Assembly (NCBI RefSeq): GCF_020911925.1
Contig: NZ_CP087134.1
Coordinates: 4,836,001 to 4,900,000, forward strand
DNA length: 64,000 bases
From: Flavobacterium cupriresistens
Lineage (GTDB): Bacteria; Bacteroidota; Bacteroidia; Flavobacteriales; Flavobacteriaceae
Reading direction: 5' to 3'
Shown in pieces: positions 26,122 through 64,000 of the stretch. The position numbers and the translations under genes are program-made. Under the pieces are notes generated by a model. It did no database searches, had not been told where the DNA came from, and was given only the letters and a program-made list of their open reading frames with translations. Position 1 is the first letter of the stretch. Each line of letters begins with the position of its first letter.

Positions 26122-26133
26122 GATCGTATCTTT

Positions 26134-27898: not shown

Positions 27899-27935
27899 AA
27901 AACAAAAAAACCACTCGTTGGAGTGGTTTTTAGTA
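27899..27935 (-). terminator. Terminator of the NRPS/PKS operon
   Basis: AAAACCACTC-GTTG-GAGTGGTTTT (27907-27916, 27921-27930) is a perfect 10-bp stem. On the minus strand it is followed by a run of T. It starts directly after the stop codon of the phosphopantetheinyl transferase gene, marking the 3' end of the long minus-strand operon. Confidence 0.93.
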
Positions 27936-27936
27936 A

Positions 27937-28587
27937 CTATAAATCATGAATCCGCATCCTACTGGGGCCGACAATGATAGCGTCTATTTTATCTTTAAAG
28001 GCTAAATGGCATTTGTATTTTTTGTCCAGAAAAATTTCTTTCACAAAAAAATACTCCTCCTCTATTTTGGCATAATGGTTTGTTACCTCAAACGATTTTA
28101 AAGGAATAGAAAGCCCTTTACCATTTGCTTTAATAACGGCTTCTTTTTGTGTCCAATACTCAAAAAAGGCACTTTCGGTATCCTCGTTAAGCGAGAGATT
28201 GTCCCATTCTCTTTTTGTCATTTGCGATTTAAATCCTTCGAGCTCTATGTCGTGGATTATTTCAATGTCTATTCCCACATCGCTTCTGTCCGACAGCACA
28301 CAAACAACAATTTCTCCTGAGTGTGATATATTAAATTTAGTAGTATCGTCATTTAGAAATGGTTTACTGTAAAGCGTATAACTCAGCTCTGCTTCGGCAT
28401 AACTTTTACTCATTTTCTGAAGACCATGGCGCAAAAGCAATCTTCCTAACAGGGACAACTGACTGTCTTGCCAACGTCTGTAAGCCAATATCTTTTTTTG
28501 AAAATCGGCCGAAAATTCATTTAGATAATTCGTTATAAGATAATTGTGATTCTCTTCAGAAATGTAAGCGTATAAAATGTGCGTCAT
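27937..28587 (-). CDS. 4'-phosphopantetheinyl transferase (Sfp type)
   Basis: A 216-residue enzyme that moves the phosphopantetheine arm of CoA onto carrier proteins. The two family motifs are present: GIDIE (Asp107, Glu109) and WTQKEAVIKANGKGL (Glu149, Lys153). The length is typical of Sfp-type two-domain enzymes. As the last gene of the NRPS/PKS operon, 26 bases after the ATP-grasp-like gene, it should activate the ACP and PCP domains encoded upstream. It ends at the operon terminator. Confidence 0.94.
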   Translation of the reverse strand: MTHILYAYISEENHNYLITNYLNEFSADFQKKILAYRRWQDSQLSLLGRLLLRHGLQKMSKSYAEAELSYTLYSKPFLNDDTTKFNISHSGEIVVCVLSDRSDVGIDIEIIHDIELEGFKSQMTKREWDNLSLNEDTESAFFEYWTQKEAVIKANGKGLSIPLKSFEVTNHYAKIEEEYFFVKEIFLDKKYKCHLAFKDKIDAIIVGPSRMRIHDL

Positions 28588-28613
28588 TTTGTATCCGTAT
28601 TTAATCTATATAA

Positions 28614-29984
28614 TTAATTGGCAATCTCAAATACAATTGCTTCAACGGCACCTGTCGCAGAGTTTATAACCCCTACATCTGTTTTTACTTCTGACATTCT
28701 TACCCACACACCTCCATAACAATCTCCAAAACCAAATGAACCCCAAATTAGTTTATGCAACGTCCATTCGTTCTCTGCGTTGGGAGCTAGAAAGTCTAAT
28801 GAATCGCTAAACTCCTGGGCAATAAACGCATTATTTTGCAGTGCTAATTCTAATGCTTCTTCCCATTCTTTTTCAGTTGAAAATTTGCCAATAAAAACGT
28901 CCTTCCCCTGAAATCCTCTTGCTACTTTTATCACAAATTTATCTTTGTCGGTTTTCAATAAATCAGGAAGATTATGCTCTCTGTCTTTGAAAATGACTTT
29001 TTTATTTTCGATAAACGAAGTCCACGGAATATTTTTTAGTATTAGTTCATTTTCTTCGGGTGAAAACTTTCCTGCCTGAGCCAATTCCAACAAAATAAAC
29101 AAGTTTCTTTTATCACCAAGCATCCTAAGTCCAAGATGGTCGGGAAGATAAATCCTGTCCATCATAAAAGCTCTGAATATGGCTGGCGTAACATTCATAT
29201 CCATTGTTAAAATGATCAAACTGTGTATCACTTTATCGCCTAAACATAGATTCCCATTGGTAAGTGTCAATTCATTCATATCTCCGCCATATGCACCGCC
29301 ATTTAGTCCAAAATTGGCTAATTCTTCCTTAAACAGCTTGTCAAAAAAGCCCAGGCTTTCTTCTTTTTCGGCTTCATCTTCGATATCCCCCATTTCCATA
29401 AACAGGTTAATGGTACTCTGTTTACCCAGCTGTTTAATGATTTGTTCGATAAGGAATTTCATGTAGATCTGTAAGGTGTTCCTTCCCTTGTAATCCAGAA
29501 CTTTGTCTTTATTTACTAATTCGGGATGGTTATTTCTTATCAGCGATTCAAAACTTTGTATTTGCCATCCTCCTATTGAAGATCCAATATTGGCTTCTAA
29601 AACTTTAAACCCGTCTTCTGTAAAAGTCAAATCTAATCTACAGCCTATTTCAAGATCTTTTTTATGACATAACATGGCAAATTCTGCCATCATTTCGTCT
29701 CCTGCAAAATAAAATTCTGCCAGTTTTTTTATATCATCATTAAAATACAACGATGGAATTTGTTTTAACAGGCTTGGGATTTTTACAGATAGTGCTGTTA
29801 ACTCTTGTGTCATTTGTTTATTGATGAGTACCGGCCATCCGCTTACCGGATATTTGTAACTTTTAAATACATCAGGAACGGACTCATGGTTGGTATTTAT
29901 TCTTGCGGGAATATCTTTAGTGCCTTCAAATTCTAAAAATTTTTCGGAAAGGATTGTATATTCTTCAGTCGTATTTTTTATCAT
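28614..29984 (-). CDS. Circularly permuted ATP-grasp-like protein in the NRPS operon
   Basis: A 456-residue protein without a signal peptide. The segment CRLDLTFTEDGFKVLEANIG resembles the RxDxxxxxDGxxxxExN block of circularly permuted ATP-grasp enzymes. A later segment, FVIKVARGFQGKDVFIGKFS, resembles their nucleotide-binding strand and glycine loop, and is followed by AFIAQEF. ATP-grasp enzymes join a carboxylate to an amine through an acyl phosphate, so it may add a residue to the product or a precursor. The family call is by pattern only. It lies between the hydrolase and the PPTase genes and is clearly part of the operon. Confidence 0.6.
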   Translation of the reverse strand: MIKNTTEEYTILSEKFLEFEGTKDIPARINTNHESVPDVFKSYKYPVSGWPVLINKQMTQELTALSVKIPSLLKQIPSLYFNDDIKKLAEFYFAGDEMMAEFAMLCHKKDLEIGCRLDLTFTEDGFKVLEANIGSSIGGWQIQSFESLIRNNHPELVNKDKVLDYKGRNTLQIYMKFLIEQIIKQLGKQSTINLFMEMGDIEDEAEKEESLGFFDKLFKEELANFGLNGGAYGGDMNELTLTNGNLCLGDKVIHSLIILTMDMNVTPAIFRAFMMDRIYLPDHLGLRMLGDKRNLFILLELAQAGKFSPEENELILKNIPWTSFIENKKVIFKDREHNLPDLLKTDKDKFVIKVARGFQGKDVFIGKFSTEKEWEEALELALQNNAFIAQEFSDSLDFLAPNAENEWTLHKLIWGSFGFGDCYGGVWVRMSEVKTDVGVINSATGAVEAIVFEIAN

Positions 29985-30057
29985 AAAAAAGTGTTTTTAT
30001 TTTAATGTATATGCTTCTAATTGAACTAAGACAGGTCCAAAAACCTACTCTTGTATT

Positions 30058-31998
30058 TTATAGTATTCCCCAATAAAGCAAATAGGTTGCTAATAGTATG
30101 TTTGAAAAAATCACGGAGAAAATGACACTTCTGGCATCAGTTTTTTTAATGGTTAAAATGTAATACAGCAAGGTCAAAATCAGACACCCTAAAAAGACCA
30201 GTACCAACAGAAATATATAGTTGAAGGTTTGCGGCAGACCAAATGCCAGAATGAAATAGTTTTGTTCTGAAACTTTCGTGATGGCCATAAGCAAACATCC
30301 GAAAAGTACTAATCCGGTAATAGAAGTAATCGTTATCCCAATCCTTACTATCTTATCCTGAACTGTGGTATATCTCTTTTTGATTAACTTGATAAGGTAG
30401 GCAAAAATAAACGCTAACATTACTACTAAAGCTGTTGCTAAAGGGAATAGAAAAATAGGGTCTTGTTCTCCGATACTTTTACCGGTTTTCGCAACTCCTT
30501 TGTTAATCGTAATTCCTGTAACTAGTTTTACATTATCGGCTTCCTTAAACCTATTGAGATCCAGTTTTTGTTTCGGATTATCGATGAAACTTTCTACAAC
30601 CTTGTATCCAATTTTTGTAAAACTAGGAACATGGCCATAGGTTCTGGCCTCGATATAATTGGCTTTACCGAATCTTTGTGCTACTTTTTTTCCGTTATCC
30701 AGTGGCGTGATTGGATCAAATTCACCTGAAAAAACCAACACAGGATATGTCGCAGTAGCAAGGTTAGAAAGCGTATTGTCTTTTTTTGCAGCTACTGTGC
30801 GATTACTATTCCATGCGTCACACACTTTAAAATCAGATTTGTAGAATGAAATTCCTCCATTTAATCCCTTAAACTGCGATGCGTTTTGCTGATATTTTAA
30901 AAAATCATTGTTGGGAAGGGTCTCGTTACAACTCACACAATAATACACGCCATAATCCATCGACAATAAACTTGAGAAAGCACTTACCAGGTTCCCTAAA
31001 GATTCTCCTCTTCTTTCATGAAACTGATAAATTAAGAGCGGAATTACTTCTACTAACTTTTTATTGTATAGGGCTTGCTGAACTGCTACTTTAAAATCTT
31101 CTGCATTATACGTAAATGTGCCGGAAGGGATTAATGTTTTATCTACTGTCACAGTCAGCGGATTTTTCTCCAGATCGGCAATTACTTCATAGTATATTTT
31201 TTCTAAATTGGGATATTGTTTATCGTAGGTCTTGTCACTTTTACAGATTTTAAATACTTTCTGTAAACTCGTCATATAATTTGAAGTATTCTCTACATAA
31301 TAGGTCGAAATGTCATAAACCGGAGAGTCTAACAGTAATGATTTTACATCCCCGGCAAAATTGTTTGCATATACTTGTGCCATGTAGGTTCCGTATGATA
31401 CGCCGTATACATTCCAGTTTTTGTACTTTAATGCTGTTTTTAAGGCATGAAGGTCTTTTGCTACAGCTTGGCTGTTGTAAGCGTCGAGGTTGATTCCTCT
31501 GTTGATAAGCTCTTGTTTGCAGGACATTGCAGCATTCGTTTTTTGCTTTTCATCTTCTTCTTCTGACTGGTTTTTTGCCAGAATTTCTAAAAATTTCTTT
31601 CCTAGTCCCTGATCCAACCTTGGCTGTGAATAGCCAGTCCCACGAACATCAAATAATACAATATCATTATTTTCCCTTAGAGGATGATTCAACCATAACC
31701 ATATATTATCAATACCACTCGCGCCCGGGCCTCCTTGTATAAAAACTACGGCGTTCGAATCTTTTGCTGTTGCATTCTTTTTTAGTACAGTTACCGCAAT
31801 TTTTATGGTTTTACCATCATTTGCTCCCCAGGTTTCCGGAACAGTAAGGTAGCCCCAGCTGATTTTTTTGGGATCTGATTTTTTGAATTGAGGCATAAAA
31901 GCGGTCCTATTCTCAAAAGTCACGTTTTGCGCCTGCAAATTCCCGATCAGAATTGCAAATAAAAAAGAAATAGTACTAATTGTTTTTCTTAATCTCAT
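30058..31998 (-). CDS. Alpha/beta-hydrolase (tripeptidyl-aminopeptidase-like) with C-terminal membrane domain
   Basis: A 646-residue protein. After a signal peptide (ISFLFAILIGNLQAQ) comes an alpha/beta-hydrolase domain: oxyanion-hole segment VVFIQGGPGASG, LFDVRGTGYSQP, nucleophile elbow GVSYG, and the late FSGEFDPITP and YGHVP segments carrying the Asp and His. This matches prolyl/tripeptidyl aminopeptidases with a TAP-like C-terminal domain. Residues about 510-646 add four hydrophobic helices, so the enzyme is probably held in the membrane facing the periplasm. In this operon it may trim, mature or inactivate the peptide after export. It is co-directional with NRPS genes 35 bases away. Confidence 0.85.
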   Translation of the reverse strand: MRLRKTISTISFLFAILIGNLQAQNVTFENRTAFMPQFKKSDPKKISWGYLTVPETWGANDGKTIKIAVTVLKKNATAKDSNAVVFIQGGPGASGIDNIWLWLNHPLRENNDIVLFDVRGTGYSQPRLDQGLGKKFLEILAKNQSEEEDEKQKTNAAMSCKQELINRGINLDAYNSQAVAKDLHALKTALKYKNWNVYGVSYGTYMAQVYANNFAGDVKSLLLDSPVYDISTYYVENTSNYMTSLQKVFKICKSDKTYDKQYPNLEKIYYEVIADLEKNPLTVTVDKTLIPSGTFTYNAEDFKVAVQQALYNKKLVEVIPLLIYQFHERRGESLGNLVSAFSSLLSMDYGVYYCVSCNETLPNNDFLKYQQNASQFKGLNGGISFYKSDFKVCDAWNSNRTVAAKKDNTLSNLATATYPVLVFSGEFDPITPLDNGKKVAQRFGKANYIEARTYGHVPSFTKIGYKVVESFIDNPKQKLDLNRFKEADNVKLVTGITINKGVAKTGKSIGEQDPIFLFPLATALVVMLAFIFAYLIKLIKKRYTTVQDKIVRIGITITSITGLVLFGCLLMAITKVSEQNYFILAFGLPQTFNYIFLLVLVFLGCLILTLLYYILTIKKTDARSVIFSVIFSNILLATYLLYWGIL

Positions 31999-32033
31999 AA
32001 TGTTTATGTTATATTTTTTTCTATTTATTTCAG

Positions 32034-35000
32034 TTAAAAATTGAATCCTATATCTATTGTTCTTTCTTTTTCAATAGCCAATTCTATGTCTATTTCTTTT
32101 AAAGATTGATTGGCGTTTTCTACAATTTCGCGAAGTAGTTTTTCGTATTTTAGTAGTATTAGCTCAATTGTAGCTGCTTCGTACTTTGTGGTATTGTAAC
32201 TTAGTGTTCCTGCTACATTTCCCTCGTTTACGACAAAGTTGATTAACAAAGGAAGTCTGCTGTAGGAAGTACTCATAGGCGCTATTTCCAGCTGCAACTT
32301 TTCATTGATCACAATGTTTGTGTAGCTGAACGAAGGGTTTTGCAATACCAACAGTACGTCTAATCGCAATTTATTCTGTAGGACTTCGGGTAGATCCTGG
32401 TGTTCATCAATCTGTAACAGATTTTGGTGCGTTTCTTTTAGTAGTTCACTAAGACTGTTTTCTGAATTTATACGATTCCTCAAAGGCAACGTTTTCGCAA
32501 ACATTCCAAGTTGATTGTGCAGTTCGGAATTGGTTCTTCCGGAATTAACCGTTCCGATGCAAAAATCTTCTTCTCCGTACATTTTATGCAGGAGCATGCT
32601 AAATGTACCGACCAAAAGGGTGTGAAGCGATATATTTTGCTTTTGTGTGAATTCGTTTAATTCCGAAAATGTAAGAGAGTCAAATACAAAATAATGATCT
32701 GTTCCTGTATGCTTCTCTTCATAGTCATCGGCATCAAAAGGAATACTGTTTTTCCAGGTATATCTTTCGAGATATGTTTTCCAGAATTTTAAATTGGTCT
32801 CATTAGCACTTCTTTGTTGCTCTTGATGCCATACAACATAATCCTTAAATTGAAACTTTAATTTGTGAACCTCTATGTTATTCTGCTGTTCTATTTGTTT
32901 GTATTGACTAACAAACTCCTTTACTAAAATTTCTAAAGACCAACCGTCCATAATGATATGATGGGTACAAAATACCAAATAAGAATCCCCGTTTTTCTGA
33001 TGAAATAATGCCACTCTCAATAATGTTTCCTTTTCTAAATCAAAGGCTTTGTTTACGTACTCCTGTATGGACTTTGTTCGCTCTTTTTCTTCATAGAAAA
33101 ATTCATCAATTACTACCTGTGTTTGTTCCGATGCAGCAATTTTTTGATTGGGAATTCCTTCTATCTCAATAAAATTTGTTCTTATGATTTCATGTTTCTT
33201 TTGCAACTCTAAAAACACTTGCTCTAAAACCGTTTTTTTTATCTGACCATGTACTTTGAATACGGCCGACATATTGTAGGATATCGATTTTTCTTTTAGT
33301 TGCGATGCCAGCCATATGTTGTATTGAGAAGACGTAATTGCATAATGCAAACGTTCTGCTACCGGTAGAATCGCGATCGCTTGTACGGTTTCTTTTTGCT
33401 CGAGATACTTTGCTAATTTTTGTACGGTAGGATAGTCAAAAATGTCTTTTAAAGTTATTCTGTACTGCAGTTTTTCGTTTATACTGTTTATTAATTTCAC
33501 TGCATTCAGGGAGTGACCACCAAGCTGGAAAAAATTATCGGTAATGCCAATTTCTGTAGCTGTTCCTAATACCTCATGGTAATACGAACAGAGCTTATTT
33601 TCTATTTCTGTTGTTGGTTTCTCATAAGAAAGTGCTGTTTTTTCTGTGGTAATTTTTACCTGTGACAGCGCTTTTCTATCGACTTTTTTATTGGGTGTTA
33701 ACGGAAATTCGTCTAAAGAAAATAGCGCATGTGGAATCATATATTCCGGTAATTCTTCTCTCAATGTGTTAATGATCTCAGTCGTATTAAAGGTTCCCGT
33801 TTGCGCAATTACATAGGCAATTAATACCGCTTCCTGTCCTGCGTTTTGCCTGGCAATTACTATGGCTTCTTTAATATTTTCTATTTGATTTAACTTCGTT
33901 TCTATGTCTCCAAGTTCTATGCGATATCCTCTTATTTTGACCTGATTATCGTTGCGTCCCACGAATTCTATTTCCCCTTTTTCATTCCATTTTCCTAAGT
34001 CTCCCGTATTGTACATTCTTTCGTTTTCCTTGAAAGCATTTTTAATGAATTTTTCATTGGTCAACTCTTCATTTTTAAAATACCCCTGTGCTAATCCGTC
34101 ACCACCAATATAAATCGTTCCCACACTACCAACAGGCAGCAATTGCATACAATCGTCGAGTATGTACAATTCGGTGTTGTGAATGGGTTTCCCAATATTT
34201 GAGGCTTCATTTGTCTGAGTTACTTTTTTACAGCTGGACCAAATTGTGGTTTCTGTCGGGCCGTACATGTTCCATACTTCAGCAGTAGTTGCTATTAATT
34301 TTTCGGCCAGTGTTTCGCTTAACAGATCGCCTCCGCATAAAATTCTGAGCGTTTTATCTCCTTTCCAACCTGCATTATAAAGCATTTGATAAAAGCTTGG
34401 AGTCGCCTGAATTATCGTCGGTTTTAGTTCCGTCAACTTTACAACAATAGCCAATGGATCTGCTAAAAGTTCCGGACTAGCAATGTATAGTTTAGCTCCT
34501 GAAATTAACGGTGCAAAAAATTCAAGTATAGAGATATCAAACGATTGTGTGGTAACCGAAAATAAATAATCCTGTTCCTCTACTTTAGGTTTGTGTTGTA
34601 TACTAATTAGAAAATTCAGTAATGCTTTGTGGCTTATGGCTACTCCCTTAGGCTTGCCTGTAGAACCCGAAGTATAGATGATATAGGCTGTAGACACAGC
34701 TGCTATTTCTTTTTGTTCCGTTTCTTCTAACTTAATTTCTTCTTTTATAATAACTTCAATATCTATAATACTGTCCTTTAGGTCCAGATTGTGCTTTAGA
34801 TTTTGGGTTGCTATAATTTGTTGTACGCCACTGTGTTCAATAATATATTCTAAACGTTCTTTTGGAAAAGAGGGGTCTAATGGAATATAAGCACTACCCG
34901 ACTTTAATATCCCTAATAGGGTCGCCACAAGATTGGCCGAACGATCCATTAAAACTGCAATTGGGGCAATATTTTGTTCCTTATTTATTCGCCGTAAATA

Positions 35001-36479: not shown

Positions 36480-36585
36480 TTTTTTTAGTTTTAAAACAAT
36501 TATAAGAATCAAATCCCCTGTCATCTTCGTTGCTTTGAAGACTCTAAAAATGCCTTATCGACCCGGGCATTTAAACAAAAAAGGG

Positions 36586-38223: not shown

Positions 38224-38249
38224 TTTTAAAGTTGTTTTAATCTTAATTA

Positions 38250-38975
38250 TTACATTTTTAACTGCTCACTATTGACGCATTTTAATAGTATGCCTGCTAT
38301 TTCATCGGGATACTCGTGTATAAAAAAATGGTTTCCCGGTAATACTTGACTTTTAAAGTCGGCATTGGTGTAATTTTTCCAATTGTCGATGAGATGAGCC
38401 TTTTTTTCGCTATCCCCCATTATGGCATGTATCGGGCAATCTATTTTAATGTTTTGCTTTATAAATCCACCTTTTTCCAACACTTGAAAGTCTGCTCTGA
38501 TAATAGGACCAAAGAAATCAAACAACTCTTTGTTTTCCAGCACTTCCTCAGGAATGCCGCCCAATTCTCTAAGCACCGATTTAAATTCGTCATCCGGCAA
38601 GCTGTAGCGGTCTCTTTTTATTTCGGCTCCCTCTTCATCAAATACTTTTAATCCCGGTCCGGCATTACCGGTGGCCACAAATTGTAATGGAGCATCATTT
38701 TCCTGTTCCATTTCTTTTACGACTGAGAATCCCAATGTGGCTCCCATACTGTGTCCGAAAATGATGTACGGTTCGTTATTTCTTAATTTTTTTATTTGCT
38801 TTACGTAATCCTGTATCGCTTCTTTTTTATTTAATAACAGATCCTCATTATATCTTTTACCCCTGCCAGGGAGTTCTAAAGCGTAAACGCTGATCTCTTT
38901 GTCCTTTAATTTTTTTTTCAAAAAATCATAGGAGTAACAATTTCCTCCGGCAAAATGGAGTAAAAATAATTGCAT
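38250..38975 (-). CDS. Type II thioesterase of the NRPS/PKS cluster
   Basis: A 241-residue alpha/beta-hydrolase of the GrsT/RifR class. It begins MQLFLLHFAGGNCYSYDF (oxyanion region), has the nucleophile motif GHSMGA with Ser76, the MGDSEKK segment with the Asp, and LPGNHFFIHEY with the His. These stand-alone enzymes remove stalled or wrong acyl groups from carrier proteins. As the assembly line has no type I thioesterase domain in the window, this could also help in release, but that is inference. Confidence 0.93.
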   Translation of the reverse strand: MQLFLLHFAGGNCYSYDFLKKKLKDKEISVYALELPGRGKRYNEDLLLNKKEAIQDYVKQIKKLRNNEPYIIFGHSMGATLGFSVVKEMEQENDAPLQFVATGNAGPGLKVFDEEGAEIKRDRYSLPDDEFKSVLRELGGIPEEVLENKELFDFFGPIIRADFQVLEKGGFIKQNIKIDCPIHAIMGDSEKKAHLIDNWKNYTNADFKSQVLPGNHFFIHEYPDEIAGILLKCVNSEQLKM

Positions 38976-39029
38976 ATCGTTATTTTATATAGTTTAAGGA
39001 AACAGCTTCCTTGTTTCTAAAAATTAAAA

Positions 39030-41414: not shown

Positions 41415-41442
41415 TTTTATTTACAATGTTTATGCAGTTGTA

Positions 41443-45099: not shown

Positions 45100-45162
45100 T
45101 ATATGTAAACTTTTTAGGTGTTTTGTATGATTCTATATAAAACTTATGTCTCTATTTTTAGA

Positions 45163-49377: not shown

Positions 49378-49434
49378 TTTTTATTATATAATTTAAGTTG
49401 TTAATTTTGCTGCTACAATTCATTTTTTATACGA

Positions 49435-55400: not shown

Positions 55401-58400
55401 ATACAAACTCATAATAATTATTTCCTAAATCAAGTACTTTTAATCGCATTAATGAACTATCGGAAAGTATAAAGCCTTCCTCTCTGTCTTTCAACTTAAA
55501 TTGCTTAACATAGTCATCAATATTCCTTTCTTTTATAGAAGCAGGCAGCTTTTCAAAATAAAAATTTGCCGCTACTTCTTTTCGAACTACTTGTAGTGGT
55601 ATGTCAGTTATATTATTTATAAAACCCGTTCTCAGTACCGAATGTCGTTCAACTAATTTTTTATAGGCTTCATGAACTTCACTAATCTCTATATTTTTTA
55701 TTTGCAATCTGTAAGATATTTGCTCAAAATATAACGAATTCGACTTGCTGGTTAGCCAGTGATAATAGATACCTTGTTGCAATGGCGAAAGCTCATATAC
55801 ATTTTCTATAGTTTGCGTTGACTTAATCTGACTTAATTCATTCACTGTTAATTCTTTGAACAGCAAGTCCGAAGGTGTTTTATAGGTTTCGTTTTTCTTT
55901 GATACCTTCTCAATTAACAATAATAATTTTTCTTGATAAGCCTCTGATAATTTTTTAATTGTATCGTGAGAATACATCAAATCAGAGTACATTATAGTCA
56001 TAGAAAGTTTTCCCGACTCTGTAGATCCTGTAATACTTAAAAGAGAAATATCTGAATTTTCTTTTGCAATGTTATCCCCAATAGATTCGGAGGAATAACT
56101 AAAATCAGATTGAAAATTTTCTGAGAAAGAGTTGTCAAAATCTCCCAAATAATTAAACGATATGGATGAATTTATTTCCAGCGCTCCATAGTCCTCATTC
56201 AAGTATTTTAAAATCCCAAAACCTATTCCTTTGGCAGGTATTTTTCTAATATTTTCTTTTACTTTTATTAGGCTATCTATATCTTCCTCTGTATTTGTAA
56301 TGTCTAATATTAAAGGATATTCTGTTGTAAACCAACCAATGGTTCTGCTAACATCTATATCTTCAATTATATCTTCTCTTCCATGGCCTTCCATCTTAAT
56401 TATGGTACGATCCTGTTCAAACACTTCTTTTATGGCCAATGCTAAACCCGTTAACAATACATCATTGATTTCTGTTGTATAAACCTTATGAAATTTGGTT
56501 TGTAGCAACTCCGTTGTTTGTCTGTCTAAGCTAAAAGTGAACTGATTCTCCAGGGCTGCAGCGCTCTCATTGATTTTATAATCTGTTTTTATTCGAGCTG
56601 CTTTTTCTTGACTTAATGTAGACCAATATGATGCTTCATTAATCATTTTTTTACTATAGGCATGTTTTTGTTGTGATAATGCCCATTGTTGAAATGAATT
56701 TGTTTTTAATGGCAATACTAACTTTTCATTTTTTTCTGCCTGATTGTACAGTGTTAATAAATCTTCAATTAGAATTCTCCACGAAACAGCGTCTATTACT
56801 AAATGGTGCACTATTATTGCCAGTCTGTCCCCGTCATTCATTTTGAAATGTGCCACTTTAAGTAACGGACCATTAGTAAGATTAAATGATTTTTGCAGCT
56901 TTTCAGACACAGCAGTCATTTCGTCTAATGGGTTTTCATAAGTCGTCAGATCATGATCAATTACTGTATAATCTCTTACATCAAAGGGATTATTGTATTG
57001 TATCCTTTTTCCATTCTCTTCTTTAAAGACGATTCGCAAGGCATCATGATGCTCCAATAACTTATGGATACAATCTTGTAATACGATGCTTTTTATTCTT
57101 GACTCACTTTTTAACAGTACTGACTGATTGTAATGCTGTGGCGCATTAACGTTAGGGTTTTCGAAAAGATAATGTTGTATAGGAGTTAAAGGAGATTCTC
57201 CTACAACCTCTTTTTGATTAATTATGGTTACACTTGAAGTTAAAAGCAATGCTAAATTCTCAATAACAGGATTCCTTAATATTTGCTCGACTTTTAGAGT
57301 GTACCCAGCTTGTTTTAATCTGGAAACTATTTGAATAGATTTTATAGAATCACCTCCTAATTCATAAAAACTATTCTTGACACTAATTTGTTTATGTTTT
57401 AACACTTCTTGACATATCGTCACTAAAACTTCCTCTTTTGTGTTTCTGGGAGCTATATAATCAACTTTTACTGATAATTGATTTTCATGAAGTTGTTGCA
57501 ACTTTTTAGTATCAATTTTACCATTAGGTGTAAGTGGAAATTTCTCAAATTGCTGATAGTGTGCGGGAATCATGTAATTAGGTACTCTATCGATCAGGAA
57601 ATTCCTTATTTCTGCTACATTGAATGCTCTATCTGCAACAATATAAGCGAATAGCTCCTCTTGATTTGCAACTCCTTTTTTTACTAACACAACTACTTCC
57701 CGGATACCTTCAATCTGTCTTATATAAGATTCTATTTCTCCAAGCTCAATTCTATATCCTCTAATTTTTACCTGATTATCTGCTCTTCCAAGAAATTCAA
57801 TATTGCCGTCATACAACCATATCGCTACATCTCCTGTTCTATATAATTTTACTCCTTTTTCAAATGGACTCTCTATAAATTTTTCTGAGGTCAGTTCTGG
57901 CCTGTTTAAATATCCTTGTGCTACACCTTCTCCCGAAATATATAATTCACCTATAGCTCCTTTAGGGATAAGTCTTTGCTCCTTATTTAACAGGTAAACT
58001 TTGGTGTTACCAATAGGTTTCCCTATGGTAGAAATGACAGGCTCATTCCTACTATATTTGTATACAGAGCTCCAGACGGTGCATTCAGTAGGTCCATATT
58101 CATTAAATAAAGTACAATCGCTTAATGTTTTAACCGCATGAAATTCGTCAACCAATGAGGTATGACATAATTCTCCTGCTACAATGATTTCTTTTAAATC
58201 ATTGTTCATTTGCGAAAGAGGTTGCAATAATATTTTAAGATAGGAAGGCACAGTTAAAAAGTGACTTACCTTTTCTTTCCGAATGAAATCTGTTAGGTAT
58301 TCAATATCCTCTAACATATCTGCGGGAGGTATACATAATTTACCTCCAACACTGAGTGTTCCAAAGATCCCAGCTATAGAACTATCAAAAGCAATAGAAG

Positions 58401-60522
58401 ATAAGAGTAAAAAAGCATTTACTTTTTCATAAGCTTGTATTCTTGCATTATTAGAATGCATTAAATTTTTATGTGAAATTAAAACCCCCTTTGGTTTTCC
58501 TGTAGAACCGGAAGTATATATAACATAAGCCAAATCTGAAGGTTTGATATTTAATATCCTATTTTCATCAGAATAAGATGTTTTTCTTGTAATAAATTCT
58601 TCTATTACCTTATCATCTATTATTACTTTACATTGAGCATCATTTTCAATAAAATCAATCCTTTCTACGGGATAATTAACATCTATTGGAACATAAGCTC
58701 CATTTGCCTTTAGTGCTGAAAAAATAGCAATTATAGCCCAATGCCCCTGAGCTAATTTTATTCCGATAAAATCATTTGGCTGAACATTAAATTGCTCAAT
58801 CAAATAGCTTGAAAATTGATTCGAAATTTTATTGAATTCACTATAATTAAGTTTAGTATCTTTATCAGATATAGCCATTTCATCAGGAAATTCTTTGGCT
58901 ATTTCCTCTATTACATCCACTATTGACTTACTTAAAGTAGATTTGTTTTTTACGTTGTTAAATAGGACTAATTGCTCATTTTTTTCTTCGGCACTTAAAA
59001 AATCAAGCTTTTCTATTGGATCATTGGAGCATACTACTATTTCTGAAATTCGTTTGAAATGACCTATCAGTGTCTTAATCATGTCCTCTTCATACAAATC
59101 TGTATTATAAACTGCTTTTAAAAACAGGTGCCCATCTGTTTCTGAAAAGTGAAATTCTATATCAAATAATGCTTTGCACAGGTTTTTACTTTCTATATCG
59201 ATACTGTTTTTTTCTTCAAAGATCTCTCCTGTATCATCATCGGTGTTTTGAAGAATTAACATGATATCAAAAAGAGGACTACGACTAACATCTTTTGTTA
59301 AATTTAAATCCTCAATTAATAAATCAAAAGGATATTCTTGATGCAGAAATGCTTGCAACGTGTTCTTTTTAACTTCTTCATAAAATTCTTTAAACGAATG
59401 CTGAGCGTCAATTTTATTTCGGAGTGCCAAAGTATTTACGTAAAAACCTATTTGGTTTTCTAAAGCCGCATGGTTTCTACCAGCAACAGGAGCCCCAATT
59501 ACGATATCATTTATATTCGTGTAGCTATAAATTAATACATCTAATATTCCCAGTAAGGTTATAAAAAGACTGCCTTTGTTATCGTTAGAAAATTGCTTTA
59601 ATTTTTCTGTTAAAGGTTTTGATAAATATGTTTCTATTGACGCACCATTATGTGTTTTTAATAATGGTCTTTTTTTACTTGAAGGCAAATTAATTCTTGG
59701 TAACTCTTCAAAGAAAACACTTCCCCAATAGTCTTTATGGGTAGCATCAGGTTTTGCTAATTGTTGTAGCTGCCATTCTGCATAATCTTTGTATTGAATT
59801 TCCATCTTTTCAATTTCATTCTCTCTCCCAGATGCGTATAACTTATAATGATTTAAAACATCTTTAGCTAATACGCCCATAGACCATCCATCACTTATAA
59901 TGTGATGCATATTATAATAAAAGGTATATTCATTACCGGAAGTTTTGAAAATTGAAACTCTCAATAGTGGTCCATTTTCTAAATCAAACTTCTTATATGA
60001 ATCTTCTTGTATATAATCTGTTATGATTTTTAATTGATCCGGCTTATCACTAAAATCCTTGTAATTGATAACAAAATTGAGTTCTGTAACAGGCAAAACC
60101 CATTGACGAATTTCATCATTATCGTTTTTTCTAAATACGGTACGTAATATTTCATGCTTTTCAATTACGGAGACTATTGCTTTTTTGAATTTTTCAATAT
60201 CATAATCCCCTTTTAATTCAATCGATGCAGGCATATTATAAGCTTCAGAAACGCCTTCAAATTGAGATGAAACCCAAAGCCTCTTTTGAGAATGCGATAA
60301 GGCATAACTTTCCTGAGTTTCAATTTTTTTGATTTCTTCAAACTTTTTAGCTGAAGCATATTTTTTAAAGTAGGCTACTAACTCTGCTTTGTGTTCTTTT
60401 AATTTTGAAATGATGTTGGGGTCCAATTGATCCCCGTCAAAACTGATTTGCAAATCATCACCATCTAAGGTTAAGCTTATTTGATGATCGGTAATTTCTT
60501 TTATTAATTCAATTATTTCCAT
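49435..60522 (-). CDS. Three-module NRPS: TubC docking-C-A-PCP-E-C-A(Ser)-PCP-C-A(Ser)-PCP
   Basis: A 3695-residue NRPS. Residues 1-55 resemble a TubC-type docking domain (SLTLDGDDLQISFDG). Domain order by core motifs: C1 (HHIISDG near 205), A1 (YTSGSTGKPKG near 666), PCP1 (LGGDSIKS near 1057), E (HHLVIDAVSW near 1238), C2 (HHHILMDGW near 1708), A2 (near 2176), PCP2 (near 2565), C3 (HHAILDGW near 2777), A3 (near 3238), PCP3 (near 3627). A1 pocket reads D-S-A-L-I-A-E-V-W (unassigned); A2 and A3 read D-V-W-H-V-S-L-I-D, a serine code. The A2-PCP2 and A3-PCP3 blocks are nearly identical in DNA. Starts three bases after the upstream PKS stop. Confidence 0.95.
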   Translation of the reverse strand: MEIIELIKEITDHQISLTLDGDDLQISFDGDQLDPNIISKLKEHKAELVAYFKKYASAKKFEEIKKIETQESYALSHSQKRLWVSSQFEGVSEAYNMPASIELKGDYDIEKFKKAIVSVIEKHEILRTVFRKNDNDEIRQWVLPVTELNFVINYKDFSDKPDQLKIITDYIQEDSYKKFDLENGPLLRVSIFKTSGNEYTFYYNMHHIISDGWSMGVLAKDVLNHYKLYASGRENEIEKMEIQYKDYAEWQLQQLAKPDATHKDYWGSVFFEELPRINLPSSKKRPLLKTHNGASIETYLSKPLTEKLKQFSNDNKGSLFITLLGILDVLIYSYTNINDIVIGAPVAGRNHAALENQIGFYVNTLALRNKIDAQHSFKEFYEEVKKNTLQAFLHQEYPFDLLIEDLNLTKDVSRSPLFDIMLILQNTDDDTGEIFEEKNSIDIESKNLCKALFDIEFHFSETDGHLFLKAVYNTDLYEEDMIKTLIGHFKRISEIVVCSNDPIEKLDFLSAEEKNEQLVLFNNVKNKSTLSKSIVDVIEEIAKEFPDEMAISDKDTKLNYSEFNKISNQFSSYLIEQFNVQPNDFIGIKLAQGHWAIIAIFSALKANGAYVPIDVNYPVERIDFIENDAQCKVIIDDKVIEEFITRKTSYSDENRILNIKPSDLAYVIYTSGSTGKPKGVLISHKNLMHSNNARIQAYEKVNAFLLLSSIAFDSSIAGIFGTLSVGGKLCIPPADMLEDIEYLTDFIRKEKVSHFLTVPSYLKILLQPLSQMNNDLKEIIVAGELCHTSLVDEFHAVKTLSDCTLFNEYGPTECTVWSSVYKYSRNEPVISTIGKPIGNTKVYLLNKEQRLIPKGAIGELYISGEGVAQGYLNRPELTSEKFIESPFEKGVKLYRTGDVAIWLYDGNIEFLGRADNQVKIRGYRIELGEIESYIRQIEGIREVVVLVKKGVANQEELFAYIVADRAFNVAEIRNFLIDRVPNYMIPAHYQQFEKFPLTPNGKIDTKKLQQLHENQLSVKVDYIAPRNTKEEVLVTICQEVLKHKQISVKNSFYELGGDSIKSIQIVSRLKQAGYTLKVEQILRNPVIENLALLLTSSVTIINQKEVVGESPLTPIQHYLFENPNVNAPQHYNQSVLLKSESRIKSIVLQDCIHKLLEHHDALRIVFKEENGKRIQYNNPFDVRDYTVIDHDLTTYENPLDEMTAVSEKLQKSFNLTNGPLLKVAHFKMNDGDRLAIIVHHLVIDAVSWRILIEDLLTLYNQAEKNEKLVLPLKTNSFQQWALSQQKHAYSKKMINEASYWSTLSQEKAARIKTDYKINESAAALENQFTFSLDRQTTELLQTKFHKVYTTEINDVLLTGLALAIKEVFEQDRTIIKMEGHGREDIIEDIDVSRTIGWFTTEYPLILDITNTEEDIDSLIKVKENIRKIPAKGIGFGILKYLNEDYGALEINSSISFNYLGDFDNSFSENFQSDFSYSSESIGDNIAKENSDISLLSITGSTESGKLSMTIMYSDLMYSHDTIKKLSEAYQEKLLLLIEKVSKKNETYKTPSDLLFKELTVNELSQIKSTQTIENVYELSPLQQGIYYHWLTSKSNSLYFEQISYRLQIKNIEISEVHEAYKKLVERHSVLRTGFINNITDIPLQVVRKEVAANFYFEKLPASIKERNIDDYVKQFKLKDREEGFILSDSSLMRLKVLDLGNNYYEFVWSHHHILMDGWCMSILINDFNQLLMGISGNSAVNLAEPKPYSEYIHWLRSVDTDESMGYWKNYLEDYNTVAILPFVKDLAQSTYTEGTQSLKIEGELFTKMQTLCNSAAITQSTFLQSVWGYLLSKYNNTNDVVFGAVVSGRPADLSEIEDMIGLFINTIPIRIKHQEKDTPLTLLKRMQQMAIDSNAHHYQNLAKVQSQSELGTELINHIMIFENFPIQEAVKESASLINRSDESDQNLFVEAIEVFEQTNYDFNLMVLPSTTSMRIDFKFNSEKYDAASIEKLSRHLFNVIEQFATLENKYLTEIDCLLDDDRDLILNVFNATAVNYEEDKTVLDLFKECVSEFPDRTAVSYQDTIISYQQLDVLTDQLSYYLCENFEVQSNDLVGIKLERSQKMLIAILGVLKSGAGYVPIDTHYPETRLEYIKSDSSYKICIDDAVLEIFEKEKSNSKIPAVQRTVSGSNIAYAIYTSGSTGNPKGVLNDHSGLYNRLLWMRDDLKISSKDVILQKTPYTFDVSVWELLMPSITGCELVFAQPEGHKDPAYLQEIIAEKQVTVMHFVPSMLGIFLEELDPSKCKSLRHVVCSGEALPGVMVEEFKQKLPWVRIHNLYGPTEAAIDVTSIDLTEVDTKREGVTIGKPVANTKIYIVNKQMSLQPVGIPGELLIEGIQVARGYLNNPELNSDRFIPSPFNNQKRAYRTGDLAKWLPNGEISYLGRIDNQVKIRGNRIELGEIETRIQEFDYVEHVAVLVKGDSTLRKYLVAYVISKSGYTQELLFDHLKDSLPDYMIPSRIIELDSFPLTNSGKLNRKALSDLKEETAVSSYEAPRNEMESELVSIWEEVLKQNKIGIRDNFFWIGGDSILSIRLISKINKKFDVSLTIAQLYEFNTVEALRTQIEKDVYSSKHKQFTKKEIEDKIDLIKEKVLTEISCAETIEDVYPMSDIQKGMVILSSLNSGTGIYHDQFVFQIPTVNTERFKEAFSILIWKHASLRSRFDLTTYEYEVQIVEKEIEFAIDYQDIKELGTKEKEDYIKRYMVSERQNTFSMESGLLWRISLFQINETATIFLFQFHHAILDGWSMATLNTELFQIYRDLTNSTTPKFEKLKSTNRDAIIEELYEKNNQENISFWQEELADYKRLDIFKSENANEHFEKVYDFDFKYKLEEKCKKDGVSIKTAIYAAFIHVLKIMNYEEDFVIGMVTNNRPVIEDGEKILGCFLNTIPVRNRLENSHNLTWSDYFRNTENQLTAIKKNERLTLYEISKITNEETLGGSPFFDVLVNYVDFHVYNELELETDESFVKSREFDFNVKSFEATNTVFDLNINLSGHELKLGYALKRGLKLDITLEKIHSLIDEILSIYLNLPNQKLSETNLSIDDRDLILNVFNATAVKYEEDKTVLDLFKECVSEFPDRTAVSYQDAIISYQQMDVLTDQLSYYLCENFEVQSNDLVGIKLERSQKMLIAILGVLKSGAGYVPIDTHYPETRLEYIKSDSSYKICIDDAVLEIFEKEKSNSKIPAIQRTVSGANIAYAIYTSGSTGNPKGVLNDHSGLYNRLLWMRDDLKICSKDVILQKTPYTFDVSVWELLMPSITGCELVFAQPEGHKDPAYLQEIIAEKQVTVMHFVPSMLGIFLEELDPSKCKSLRHVVCSGEALPGVMVEEFKQKLPWVRIHNLYGPTEAAIDVTSIDLTEVDTKRAGVTIGKPVANTKIYIVNKQMSLQPVGIPGELLIEGIQVARGYLNNPELNSDRFIPSPFNSQKRAYRTGDLAKWLPNGEISYLGRIDNQVKIRGNRIELGEIETRIQEFDYVEHVAVLVKGDSTLRKYLVAYVISKSGYTQELLFDHLKDSLPDYMIPSRIIELDSFPLTNSGKLNRKALSDLKEETAVSSYEAPRNEMESELVSIWEEVLKQNKIGIRDNFFWIGGDSILSIRLISKINKKFDVSLTIAQLYEFNTISDLTDQIKNNVNSSEEHEIVREDILMSFDKLREEIM
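49546..51281. repeat. A-PCP duplication, copy in module 3
   Basis: This segment matches 52732-54467 at a constant offset of 3186 bases with only scattered substitutions and no indels that I can see. It covers the last A domain and PCP of the large NRPS (residues about 3081-3659). Sequence on both sides diverges abruptly. Confidence 0.95.
52732..54467. repeat. A-PCP duplication, copy in module 2
   Basis: The partner of 49546-51281, covering residues about 2019-2597 of the large NRPS. Near-identity at silent positions points to a recent duplication or ongoing gene conversion. Both copies carry the same serine-type pocket residues. Confidence 0.95.
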
Positions 60523-60525
60523 AAT

Positions 60526-63500
60526 TTATATCTTAATCATATTAGTTTTTGCTGTTTGAACATTCAAAATCTTGGTCGCCAAATCGATCTCCATTGCAAT
60601 CATTTTTACCGTTGCTTTCTGATAAAAATCCTGTAAGTCTAATAGAATACTGTATTGTTTTTCAATTCGTTTTATAAAAATCATGGCTTTTAGGGAATCT
60701 CCTCCTAACTCAAAGAAATCATCTGTGATTCCGACTTTTTCATAATTAAAAAAATCTTGTATCATCTCGCACAATTCCGCTTCCAATTTGGTTTCAGGGG
60801 CGGTATAGGCGGTCACTACGACTGGACGTTCTATAGTATTTTTAGTAGTTAATACTGGATCTTCCGTTTTCTTAGATTCAGCTATAATATGATTCAGATC
60901 ACGGTGAGACAGTATTAAACTCGAAATATTTTTGGTCAAAAATGAGTTTTTGAACACCGTAATAATTTCTTCATCGGTTAATTTTCTACCGGTTAAATCA
61001 TCCAAATAAACCGTGATCCAGTGGTTCAGTTCATCGCTCTTATGTTCTTTGAATAAGGTGGTATAAATTTCAGATAAAACACCCGATCTGTATTTTGAGC
61101 CTTCTATTATGGAAGAAAGTCTTAGAGGAAACCAAACAAAATCTATATTTATGTTTTTAATAGCTTCGTAAAGATTGTCAATAAACCTAGTTTTAATCTT
61201 AACTTCAGTCGCCAAATCAGCTACATCTAATGGCTCTAAATCTACTTGATCGTTCCATAGTTCAGGATTGCATATTATTCCGGAAATACTGTCATGTTCT
61301 TTAAGAATGAATTCAATAGTTTCTTTAAATTGTTTTGGACATTCTAAATTGGTCTGATATTTTATTACATTTTCAGCTATTGAGTCCTCATTAGCGGTCG
61401 TATTACCGCAAAGCAATAAAACGTTGCTATTATTTGATAAAGAGGAGAGATGATCCACAATCGGTTTCACAATACCGGCTGTAGAGTGAATTACCAAATA
61501 ATTTTTCTCTCCTTCAAATTCCGTACTTTTTTTAGTACTGTTTAATTTTATATTTTCAAAAAAGGGTACCCAACGATTGTTGTTTCTATAGGCTACAGTG
61601 CTATCTTTTTCGTTAAATATTAGATCATTAACAATATTTTCAATCAGTACCGGATCATCCTGATCCTGATCTGCGTCTAGTATATAATTCGTAAACAGCC
61701 TTTCTTTTCTATCAAATAAATCCGCCATTTTTATTGCGAAGTCCATTGAAATACTGCTTACTTCATTTCCTAAAACTCTAGTATTGAACTTAGATAAGAA
61801 AGTTACTTTTATTGAAAATTGATTTACTGATTCATACAAGAACTTTATAGGATTGTAGTTTACATCCCCTTCCTTTGGAGTATCAATCAACCAGTTATAT
61901 ATGACATTTATAACTTTAATTTTCTTTGCTTTTAAATCAGCAAACAGCTCCTGAAAATTAGTACTGTTATTAGGGTCAATGCTATAAATACCTGAATCCG
62001 ACTTTACAAACGAAGATCCTTTAGTAACCATAACGATCTCATTACCCAGCGATAGCATTTGATTTTCTATAGCTGTTATGGTTTTTCCACTATTTGAAAA
62101 GATCAGATAAACTCCTTTTTCTTCAGATTTTTTTTCTGAGCTCTCGATTAACGATTTTTTCCAATTGTTTATATAATAGGAATTGAAAATGCTTCTTTCC
62201 GCATTTTTAAAAGCGCCTCCATTATTCATCAATTGGGTAATCGGACTTACTTTAACCGGTAATGTTGTTTTGTCAAATACATAAGTAGGAGCCGGTATTT
62301 TATAATGTTTTTGATAATCATAATAGGCTTCCCAGTCAACCTCAATTCCGTGTTCCCAAATACGGCCTAGAGACTCGTTAAAAAACTGATAATCATTGAC
62401 ATCATTTTTTATATGCCTAATTGAATGAATAGCTGTTTGATCCGAATTATAATATTGATTTTGTTTCAGAAAAGAAGTCAAAGTATGACCAGGGCCAATT
62501 TCTATATAGAGGCCATCTCCTTTTTGTAATAAATAATTTATACCGTCAAAGAAGTTCACTGTCCCTCTTAAATGAGCCACCCAATATTTTGCTGAAGTCG
62601 CGTCCTCTTTGGTTATTTCTTCACCTGTCAGATTAGATACAAATGGAAATTTAGGGAACGAAAGCGTGACTTTTTTAATAATTTCTTCGTACTCTTCCAA
62701 AATACTATCCATCATATCGGAATGAAAAGCATGAGAAGTTTTTAATGGCACATAACTTATGTTATTTTCACCCAGTATTTCCGTAAACTCTGAAATAGCC
62801 TTTTTTGTTCCGGATGCCACAAATGAATTTGCCGTATTTATGGCAGCAATAGACACGTTTTTTGGAAGTAAAGGCTTAATCTCAGCTAGATTTACCCCAA
62901 TACCAATCATATCACCTTCTTCAATTTTTGCCATTAACTCAGCTCTTTTTGTCACTACATACAGAGCGTCTTCAAATGAAAAAACCTCGCTGATGCAAGC
63001 CGCTACGTATTCTCCTAAACTATGCCCTATCATACTGTCAGGTGTAACACCTAATCTTATATAGAGTTTTGCAAAAGCGTATTCTACTAAAAATAATAAT
63101 GGCTGTGTATAAAAAGTATTATTAATTAGTTCTTTGTTAGCGGTTTCACTGTCGGTATATCCTAAGATTATACTGTAGTCTATTCCGGTTAATTTGGTTA
63201 TTATTTTAAATCCTTTGTCAATTATTGATTGAAAGAAAGGATTATTTAAATACACTTCTTTAGCCATCAGAAAATACTGGCTGCCTTGACCGGAAAACAT
63301 GAAAACAATCTTTTTTTTCCTGTTATTGCTAAGCTCCTTCTCCGGAACTGTATCAAACTGAATCAATTGATTTATCGCTTCTTCTTTATTTTTACAAACA
63401 ATATAATTTCTGTATCTGAAATCTTTACGCCCCGTGTTTAGCGTATAGGCCAGAGCAGGAATCTTAATCTCTTCATTCTTTTCTAAAAAATTTCTGAGCG

Positions 63501-64000
63501 TTTTTTCATAATTTTTAAGAGCTGTTTTTGTTTTAGCAGAAAAAGTAATCAGCTGGTACGAGTTTGAATCGAAATTCTCTTTTAATTCCGGAGCTTCTTC
63601 CAGAACAACATGGGCATTTGTGCCTCCAATACCGAAACTACTTACGCCGGCATTTAATAATTGATCCTGATTAGACACCCACTTTTGCAGTTTATCATTT
63701 ACATAAAAAGGCCCGGATTCAAAATTGATTTCAGGGTTTGCTTCATTATAATTTATAGAAGGAGGCAGCATCTTATTTTTAAGTGACAAAGCCGTTTTTA
63801 TAACCCCGACAATTCCTGCAACCGCATCAAGATGACCCAGATTTGATTTAACAGAACCAATGGCGCAAGAATGGTTTTTATTATAATTAAATGCTTTGTT
63901 TAAAGCCTCTATTTCAACAGGATCTCCTAATTTAGTTGCTGTTCCATGTGCTTCTATGTAACTAACATCTTCAGGGGTTATTCCGGCAAAACTATGGGCT
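60526..64000 (-). CDS. Modular PKS, KS-AT(malonyl)-degenerate KR-ACP, 5' part outside the window
   Basis: The frame is open from the stop at 60526 to the right edge, so the N terminus is missing. The visible KS part has EAHGTATKLGDP and GHLDAVAG; its Cys is outside. Next is an AT with FSGQGSQYF, GHSLGEYVA and HAFHSDMM, the last two favouring malonyl-CoA. A KR-like region follows but is degenerate: the NADPH loop reads YLVIHSTAGIV rather than GGxGxxG and the active-site Ser-Tyr-Lys pattern is absent. The ACP (LGGDSLKAM) is near the C terminus. The large NRPS with a TubC docking domain starts three bases later and should receive its polyketide. Confidence 0.93.
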   Translation of the reverse strand, partial: AHSFAGITPEDVSYIEAHGTATKLGDPVEIEALNKAFNYNKNHSCAIGSVKSNLGHLDAVAGIVGVIKTALSLKNKMLPPSINYNEANPEINFESGPFYVNDKLQKWVSNQDQLLNAGVSSFGIGGTNAHVVLEEAPELKENFDSNSYQLITFSAKTKTALKNYEKTLRNFLEKNEEIKIPALAYTLNTGRKDFRYRNYIVCKNKEEAINQLIQFDTVPEKELSNNRKKKIVFMFSGQGSQYFLMAKEVYLNNPFFQSIIDKGFKIITKLTGIDYSIILGYTDSETANKELINNTFYTQPLLFLVEYAFAKLYIRLGVTPDSMIGHSLGEYVAACISEVFSFEDALYVVTKRAELMAKIEEGDMIGIGVNLAEIKPLLPKNVSIAAINTANSFVASGTKKAISEFTEILGENNISYVPLKTSHAFHSDMMDSILEEYEEIIKKVTLSFPKFPFVSNLTGEEITKEDATSAKYWVAHLRGTVNFFDGINYLLQKGDGLYIEIGPGHTLTSFLKQNQYYNSDQTAIHSIRHIKNDVNDYQFFNESLGRIWEHGIEVDWEAYYDYQKHYKIPAPTYVFDKTTLPVKVSPITQLMNNGGAFKNAERSIFNSYYINNWKKSLIESSEKKSEEKGVYLIFSNSGKTITAIENQMLSLGNEIVMVTKGSSFVKSDSGIYSIDPNNSTNFQELFADLKAKKIKVINVIYNWLIDTPKEGDVNYNPIKFLYESVNQFSIKVTFLSKFNTRVLGNEVSSISMDFAIKMADLFDRKERLFTNYILDADQDQDDPVLIENIVNDLIFNEKDSTVAYRNNNRWVPFFENIKLNSTKKSTEFEGEKNYLVIHSTAGIVKPIVDHLSSLSNNSNVLLLCGNTTANEDSIAENVIKYQTNLECPKQFKETIEFILKEHDSISGIICNPELWNDQVDLEPLDVADLATEVKIKTRFIDNLYEAIKNINIDFVWFPLRLSSIIEGSKYRSGVLSEIYTTLFKEHKSDELNHWITVYLDDLTGRKLTDEEIITVFKNSFLTKNISSLILSHRDLNHIIAESKKTEDPVLTTKNTIERPVVVTAYTAPETKLEAELCEMIQDFFNYEKVGITDDFFELGGDSLKAMIFIKRIEKQYSILLDLQDFYQKATVKMIAMEIDLATKILNVQTAKTNMIKI

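Follow-up and report, generated by a model that had tools for sequence, protein, structure and literature searches.

A putative portable cassette for capping, exporting and uncapping the products of hybrid polyketide-nonribosomal peptide assembly lines in Flavobacterium cupriresistens

A stretch of 64,000 nucleotides from the Flavobacterium cupriresistens genome (hereafter the window; C1:4,836,001-4,900,000 of a genome that consists of one contig of 5.74 Mb) carries a hybrid polyketide synthase (PKS)-nonribosomal peptide synthetase (NRPS) assembly line, and raises the question of what is done by the genes that stand at the end of that line, among them an exporter, a hydrolase, an ATP-grasp ligase and a free-standing NRPS module. 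A preliminary description had recognised a hybrid line with transport, release and activation genes, which our analysis bears out, and had overlooked that the 3' genes form a portable, conserved cassette; it had also left unclear the place in the line of the separate protein with the domain order condensation (C), adenylation for Gly (A), carrier (T, or PCP) and condensation. We propose that the 36 kb described there are the rear half of a 68.7-kb assembly line together with a portable cassette that caps the product, exports it and uncaps it. The C-A-T-C protein (CATC) would be module zero of the line, acting in trans, and a hydrolase (HYD) would remove the cap outside the cytoplasm. We regard this account, taken as a whole, as an even call; that CATC is a first module acting in trans, and not a late one, is likely.

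The full operon has 17 genes and spans 68,673 bp (genome C1:4,863,937-4,932,609), of which the window carries the 3' half (Table 1). All eleven of the closely spaced minus-strand genes reported previously are present, with intact frames and gaps of 26-73 bp, apart from one gap of 3 bp. The claim that they make up a 36-kb operon with a complete line did not survive extension of the sequence: the PKS gene runs past the window end, six further PKS/NRPS genes lie upstream and reach extended coordinate 96609 (window numbering continued past position 64000), and nine modules precede the window's PKS. These six genes are separated by 1-98 bp, but by 795 bp before the gene for the first protein of the line (87910-96609), a 2,899-amino-acid (aa) NRPS whose start lies ~32.6 kb beyond the window end.

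The ~240 aa that precede the first A domain of this first protein, the head, have no match in Pfam. Profile comparison identifies them as a C domain reduced to its C-terminal lobe, the half that bears HHxxxDG being absent (hhalign probability 97.6, C columns 192-448). We detected a half-C head protein in 22 of the 22 cassette genomes searched, which cover the named loci described below other than L041 and L044. HHxxxD is absent from the first 240 aa of all 23 heads of type I clusters (those chosen by their ATP-grasp ligase, GRASP) and from the first 250 aa of the heads read in type II clusters (those with HYD and without GRASP). Since the first module of the head lacks the HHxxxDG half, it should not form its own first bond. 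The pocket code of that module (codes are given as nine positions, with the residue names that we take them to denote) is DL[YF]NNALTY, for Ala, in 23/23 heads, and a module with the code DAKHDGDI[VI] is found in 18 of the 23. Where head and cassette share a contig they lie tens of kilobases apart, as expected for the start and end of a line. Half-C lobes also occur in other settings. A stand-alone 265-aa protein that is 47% identical to the lobe is encoded at L084:6468-7265 (genome about 4,226,467-4,227,264), beside a histidine-kinase-like gene and with no NRPS genes next to it; a similar short frame of 271 aa, 51% identical to the lobe, is present in G437:C211; and G328:C1:4531826-4568977 contains a second half-C head and a CATC-like starter domain, with a HYD remnant bearing stop codons.

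HHxxxDG is intact in both C domains of CATC (C1 and C2), and its A domain has the Gly-type code DILQ[LM]GM[IV]W in all 32 readable distinct orthologues, the L/M and I/V exchanges being allowed; the two copies without a pocket code (L042 and the second G153 cluster) are both cut by stretch ends. In a tree with 27 C1 rows, three of which are duplicates and none of which is of type II, C1 forms a single clade (support 0.997) that is sister, with support 1.0, to the first C domain of a second NRPS line in the same genome. A sequence search of solved structures matched C1 to the starter C structures of RzmA at 88.8 bits, and these structures are absent among the 15 matches listed for C2. One entry, 7C1K, was identified as the RzmA starter C structure through the accessible part of PMC7804268. 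Among the type II regions, the line of G057 ends in a thioesterase (TE), and CATC of G052 stands before the head and the remaining line; therefore, CATC is not the terminal module there. A starter predicted to hold Gly and having a spare terminal C domain, with partner lines whose first C domain is halved, is most simply a module zero that acts in trans. A second and much larger NRPS operon, ~200 kb away (G000:C1:4569317-4661414; L005-L011), encodes four giant proteins (6680, 9624, 6474 and 7463 aa) with 28 modules, and its first protein begins with a C domain.

The cassette, made up of an ABC exporter, CATC, HYD, usually a phosphopantetheinyl transferase (PPTase) and in some cases GRASP, recurs on different PKS/NRPS lines. 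We scanned named genomes with a GRASP alignment and identified 23 loci, in Flavobacterium, Kordia, Aquimarina, Tenacibaculum, Aureisphaera, Chitinophaga and one uncultured Flavobacteriaceae genome. HYD is present at 23 of the 23, CATC at 22 (at L042 only its end), an ABC protein of at least 59% identity at 20 and PPTase at 15; the shortfall in ABC consists of a copy at 31% identity (L043) and two loci that start too late to show the gene (L031 and L042). In Flavobacterium sp. ZT3R18 (G056), ABC, CATC, HYD, GRASP and PPTase stand in the same order and are 74-83% identical to those described here, the adjoining NRPS proteins are 38-47% identical, and the head, on a separate contig, is 77.5% identical. 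In F. poyangense, identity is 86-91% from the head through the window's PKS, falls to 34-48% thereafter (45% for the ketosynthase-carrier-reductase protein, KS-T-R, and 50% for the outer-membrane barrel), and is 82-93% for TE and cassette. We conclude that the middle and rear of the line have been exchanged between conserved ends.

Across 398 genomes of the genus, GRASP occurs in six and HYD-like matches (E<=1e-3) in 52; those in 31 of the 52 cover nearly the full length at no less than 41% identity. A search for the first C domain of CATC (E<=1e-60) found it in 32 genomes, namely the 31 HYD genomes and G224. Half-C matches were detected in 33 genomes, and all 29 with matches at E<1e-10 have both HYD and CATC. 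The starts of HYD and CATC are 4.5-11.7 kb apart in all 32 listed pairs, and both CATC and half-C are present in two copies in G328, G198, G413 and G153. GRASP is absent from 25 of the 31 HYD genomes and was rejected as the gene that defines the cassette. We opened nine regions from these 25 type II genomes: CATC is present in nine (split over two frames in G278 and truncated where the stretch ends in G153), ABC in eight and PPTase in seven, and a half-C head lies within the stretch in six, while the outer-membrane barrel is only 25-30% identical where one was seen. HYD and the exporter thus track the starter and not the body, and hence are most simply specific for the part that the starter adds.

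The N-terminus of HYD resembles a signal peptide by eye, with a hydropathy not over the cut, and four hydrophobic segments lie near its C-terminus (peaks at 515-533, 555-573, 597-615 and 624-642). S201, D428 and H456, the presumed catalytic triad, are invariant in 52 homologues, and the closest PDB folds to the AlphaFold2 (AF2) model (predicted local distance difference test score, pLDDT, 89.0) are Hip1 and TnmK1. ClbP, the colibactin peptidase, belongs to the S12 family, with a beta-lactamase-type fold. HYD was considered as a peptidase of this family, which is ruled out by its Pfam assignment as an alpha/beta hydrolase with a TAP-like domain and by its best folds. The exporter passes the curated cut-off for TIGR01194 (Table 1). 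GRASP has no match in Pfam or NCBIfam and no significant match by sequence in the PDB; the best folds for its AF2 model (pLDDT 90.5) are glutathione synthetase, Cp1B, glutathionylspermidine synthetase and YgiC, with a template modelling score of about 0.6. In relatives, GRASP comes as one to three copies or as fused doubles (nine of the 23 loci have two or three genes, and three have a fused double). In the Kordia loci L034, L035 and L038, two ATP-grasp ligases are fused into a single protein of 926-933 aa.

From these sequences, their association, the halved C domain and the constant code, we infer the following route. C1 of CATC would acylate Gly on the protein's own carrier domain to give acyl-Gly, and C2 would hand this in trans to the line's first module, which begins with the C-terminal C lobe only. 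The variable PKS/NRPS body would assemble the remainder, and KS-T-R would release the chain through an R domain with His in place of Tyr. The ABC protein would then export the capped, inactive product, and HYD, fixed to the inner membrane through its C-terminal helices, would cleave off acyl-Gly, or acyl-Gly and the next residues, in the periplasm; GRASP, where present, may make a further amide bond on a carboxylate. Such a cap would both protect the producer and act as a recognition handle, allowing one exporter and one hydrolase to serve many products. More tentatively, and with somewhat less than even confidence, we suggest that nonribosomal lines in Bacteroidota use a swappable leader as ribosomal peptides do: CATC would write acyl-Gly on any line with a halved C domain, this leader would be read and removed by an exporter and a membrane hydrolase dedicated to it, and recombination would be free to swap bodies. 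The leader of type I clusters may reach through the conserved Ala-Leu-X head and be subject to editing by the ATP-grasp ligases.

A number of observations weigh against the proposed capping route. HYD and GRASP occur without CATC at L034. Among the 52 genomes with HYD-like matches, 21 have weak matches; four genomes have weak half-C matches only (E<=1e-3), two HYD genomes (G231 and G278) have no half-C match at E<1e-10, and half-C copies outnumber CATC in G241, G257 and G000. Thresholds for HYD, CATC and half-C were set after the lists had been seen, the searches score few candidates per genome, and the genomes of the genus are not independent, and the Fisher values for co-occurrence ignore shared ancestry. 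The half-C matches of type II clusters are only 24-33% identical, and the first residue of the head is Ala in type I and Tyr (four cases) or Ser (two) in type II, leaving only Gly universal. In G320 (L097-L098), a second half-C lobe lies behind a docking domain in an internal protein of 897 aa; hence, halved C domains are not confined to first proteins. The case for C1 as an acyl-accepting starter draws on one sister domain, in a tree without type II C1, and TycC, an elongation C domain, slightly outscores RzmA as a match (94.1 vs 88.8 bits). G275 and G320 contain proteins of C-A-T-C order that are not CATC orthologues and have the code DLTKIG(E/H)(V/I)G, which is not for Gly. A starter domain like C1 lies in a 1852-aa frame of G224 (G224:C82:202105-203403), a genome without a HYD match, the sole such case among the 32 genomes with the domain. 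Residue names are tentative readings of the pocket codes, and the code of the second head module reads DAWALGNVV in one alignment and DAWYLGNVV in two others, with one position shifted. Finally, the fold relatives of HYD include hydrolases that do not cut peptides, and GRASP is missing from 25 of the 31 HYD genomes.

CATC might instead be a late or last module that adds Gly at the C-terminus, with C2 releasing or cyclising the chain. It is encoded after the line here and in five of the five type I regions read, and four of those five bodies (G056, G214, G175 and G275) have a C-type domain at their end and neither TE nor R; CATC could thus follow them, a further point against a starter role. 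However, KS-T-R is the end of the line described here and of those in G328 and F. poyangense, and the line of G057 ends in TE; CATC precedes the head in G052, C1 groups with the first C domain of another line, and none of the heads read has a working first C domain. We therefore judge a late role to be less likely than a starter role, and unlikely in itself. We have equally little confidence that HYD serves in self-resistance or clean-up, by destroying product that comes back into the periplasm, or is some other tailoring enzyme. Such functions would suit its TAP-like fold relatives, among them Hip1 and TnmK1, and its weaker relatives, which are esterases, but HYD is tied to CATC and the half-C head and not to any product body, a better fit to a constant part of the substrate than to a variable product.

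Two other readings seem to us improbable. CATC, HYD and GRASP could have a separate small molecule as product or substrate, an acyl-glycine lipid or dipeptide, and be merely co-regulated with the lines, given that CATC and GRASP could work alone and that the accessible part of PMC9248904 counts N-acyl glycine among the known products of Bacteroidetes clusters. Against this stand the association of the cassette with lines that have a halved first C domain and the joint duplication of CATC and half-C in four genomes, even though their numbers are unmatched in three others. The cluster could also make a siderophore, since an exporter of the cyclic-peptide export family and an outer-membrane, TonB-like barrel point to iron uptake; yet, by Pfam, none of the 17 operon genes forms a hydroxamate or a catechol, and the barrel is poorly conserved in those type II regions that showed one.

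If the capping route applies, the domains give an outline of what is capped. In line order, the pocket codes suggest Gly for CATC; Ala, Leu and X (DAKHDGDIV) for the head; a Lys-like residue (DTESIGTVC); Ala; a Pro-like residue (DVQCISHVV); oxidised Gly; malonate with a ketoreductase (KR); Thr; malonate without a Pfam KR; D-X (DSALIAEVW); Ser; Ser; and oxidised Gly, before KS-T-R. The predicted line product is roughly Ala-Leu-X-Lys?-Ala-Pro?-(oxidised Gly)-malonate(OH)-Thr-malonate(keto)-D-X-Ser-Ser-(oxidised Gly). Our reading of malonyl (HAFH in the acyltransferase, AT, presumably a malonyl motif), Ser, Ser and Gly with an oxidase agrees with the preliminary description. The absence of KR from the window's PKS is a Pfam result, because our own KR-motif pattern missed even a Pfam-positive KR. 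Both Gly modules of the line have a flavin mononucleotide (FMN) monooxygenase placed between a4 and a5, and that in the window passes the cut-off for TIGR04020, natural-product luciferase-like monooxygenases (Table 1). The pair of Ser modules shares 1,731 bp at 98.8% identity and is a recent duplication or conversion. The domains called previously are all as described, other than that the R domain is not canonical. It keeps the NAD(P) motif GATGQVG, but the catalytic Tyr of Ser-Tyr-Lys is His here, in G328 and in F. poyangense (relatives 45% identical), leaving the triad of a thioester reductase incomplete, and its score for TIGR01746 is 109.2 bits, under the cut-off of 213.35. Aldehyde release is therefore doubtful. 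The R domain of the KS-T-R protein may free the chain without reduction. A related-locus search with the KS-T-R protein (KS-ACP-R) gave no relative.

Table 1. Genes and other features of the operon, from its 3' end to the start of the line. Positions above 64000 are extended coordinates.
Feature	Position	Strand	Evidence or remark
Intrinsic-terminator-like hairpin	27906..27931	-	11-bp stem, T-rich tail, just 3' of PPTase gene; pattern match only
PPTase, 216 aa	27937..28587	-	Pfam ACPS PF01648, 5.6e-16; activates carrier domains
GRASP, glutathione-synthetase-type ATP-grasp ligase, 456 aa	28614..29984	-	AF2 fold match
HYD, TAP-like alpha/beta serine hydrolase, 646 aa	30058..31998	-	PF00561 + PF08386
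CATC, stand-alone C1-A(Gly)-T-C2 NRPS, 1496 aa	32034..36524	-	Domain search, pocket code
ABC exporter, cyclic-peptide export family, 545 aa	36586..38223	-	TIGR01194, 303.5 bits (cut-off 286.2)
Type II thioesterase, 241 aa	38250..38975	-	PF00975, 4e-31
Outer-membrane beta-barrel, TonB-receptor-like, 794 aa	39030..41414	-	PF14905, 1.3e-80; TIGR01782 below cut-off
KS-T-R protein, no AT, 1218 aa	41443..45099	-	Domain search; R triad Tyr -> His
C-A(Gly, FMN monooxygenase inserted between a4 and a5)-T, 1404 aa	45163..49377	-	TIGR04020, 482.8 bits (cut-off 244.45)
TubC-C-A-T-E-C-A(Ser)-T-C-A(Ser)-T, 3695 aa	49435..60522	-	Domain search, pocket codes
PKS KS-AT(malonyl)-T, KR prefix, no Pfam KR domain	60526..64000	-	Runs on to extended coordinate 64896
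C-A-T	64995-68387		Upstream operon gene
KS-AT-KR-T	68397-72800		Upstream operon gene
C-A(monooxygenase)-T	72853-77325		Upstream operon gene
C-A-T	77327-80722		Upstream operon gene
(C-A-T)x2	80731-87114		Upstream operon gene
Head, half-C-A-T-C-A-T-C-A-T	87910-96609		First protein of line

The terminator pattern was found twice in the scan, against 1.0 in shuffles, and scans of the window with Rfam and for tRNAs gave no matches. Directly past the terminator-like site lie two flavin oxidoreductase genes (amine-oxidase-like and DAO-like; window 24358-27321), which also stand alongside the F. poyangense cassette, at 94% identity. Near the upstream end of the operon, L003:6459-16307 encodes a protein of 3,282 aa that combines SpvB, TcdB-middle and RHS-type domains, adjoining a gene whose product has a Por secretion tail.

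If the proposed route is correct, one cassette would mark many uncharacterised peptide clusters of Bacteroidota (HYD is found in 31 of the 398 genomes of this genus) and would tell which end of each molecule is temporary, the active compound being the uncapped form. It would also provide a natural case, of use to those who engineer assembly lines, of a starter module working in trans on a condensation domain that is halved, and a class of hydrolase for which the one literature search on this point gave no paper about prodrug activation. A search for such a pathway or cassette, or for a prodrug NRPS in Flavobacterium, gave no match by title or start of abstract in what is mostly non-subscription literature, and the accessible parts of PMC8739492, PMC10204066, PMC7804268, PMC9854587, PMC12568646, PMC10734526 and PMC9248904 do not describe the cassette.

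Individual features of the locus resemble those of known systems. Cp1B, from the E-64 pathway, joins a dicarboxylic, non-amino acid to an amino acid (PMC12568646, accessible part); GRASP is like Cp1B and glutathione synthetase in predicted fold, at about 13-15% identity, and has up to three copies per cluster. In the myxothiazol and melithiazol lines, a flavin monooxygenase lies between a4 and a5 of a Gly A domain, with hydroxylation of the Gly and release of the chain as an amide (PMC10204066, accessible part). The insertion place is the same in both Gly modules here, but the line has a pair of them, which precede a PKS module and KS-T-R, respectively, and hence amide-type release of the chain is not assured. 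Pyoverdine is exported by PvdE, a member of the TIGR01194 family, and deacylated in the periplasm by PvdQ. The cassette would share with that pathway an ABC exporter of the same family and the periplasmic removal of an acyl part, whereas its hydrolase is different and membrane-anchored, and the cassette is common to many unrelated lines. To our knowledge, naphthyridinomycin-type systems have neither a trans starter nor a halved C domain. Their likeness to the cassette lies in the removal of a leader by a membrane protease, NapG, whose substrate is the NRPS product prior to its export and activation (PMC9854587, accessible part). In colibactin biosynthesis, a starter (ClbN/ClbB) adds a constant N-acyl amino acid, a transporter (ClbM) exports the product, and the added part is removed by ClbP, a peptidase of the inner membrane that has C-terminal helices and a catalytic domain in the periplasm (accessible parts of PMC9889268 and PMC9854587). 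The layout of HYD resembles that of ClbP as far as the accessible text of PMC9889268 describes it, and the cassette may work like the colibactin prodrug route with a hydrolase of unrelated fold. In contrast to colibactin, the proposed starter would act in trans on a halved C domain and carry Gly in place of D-Asn, the exporter is an ABC and not a MATE protein, and the hydrolase is of the TAP-like alpha/beta type.

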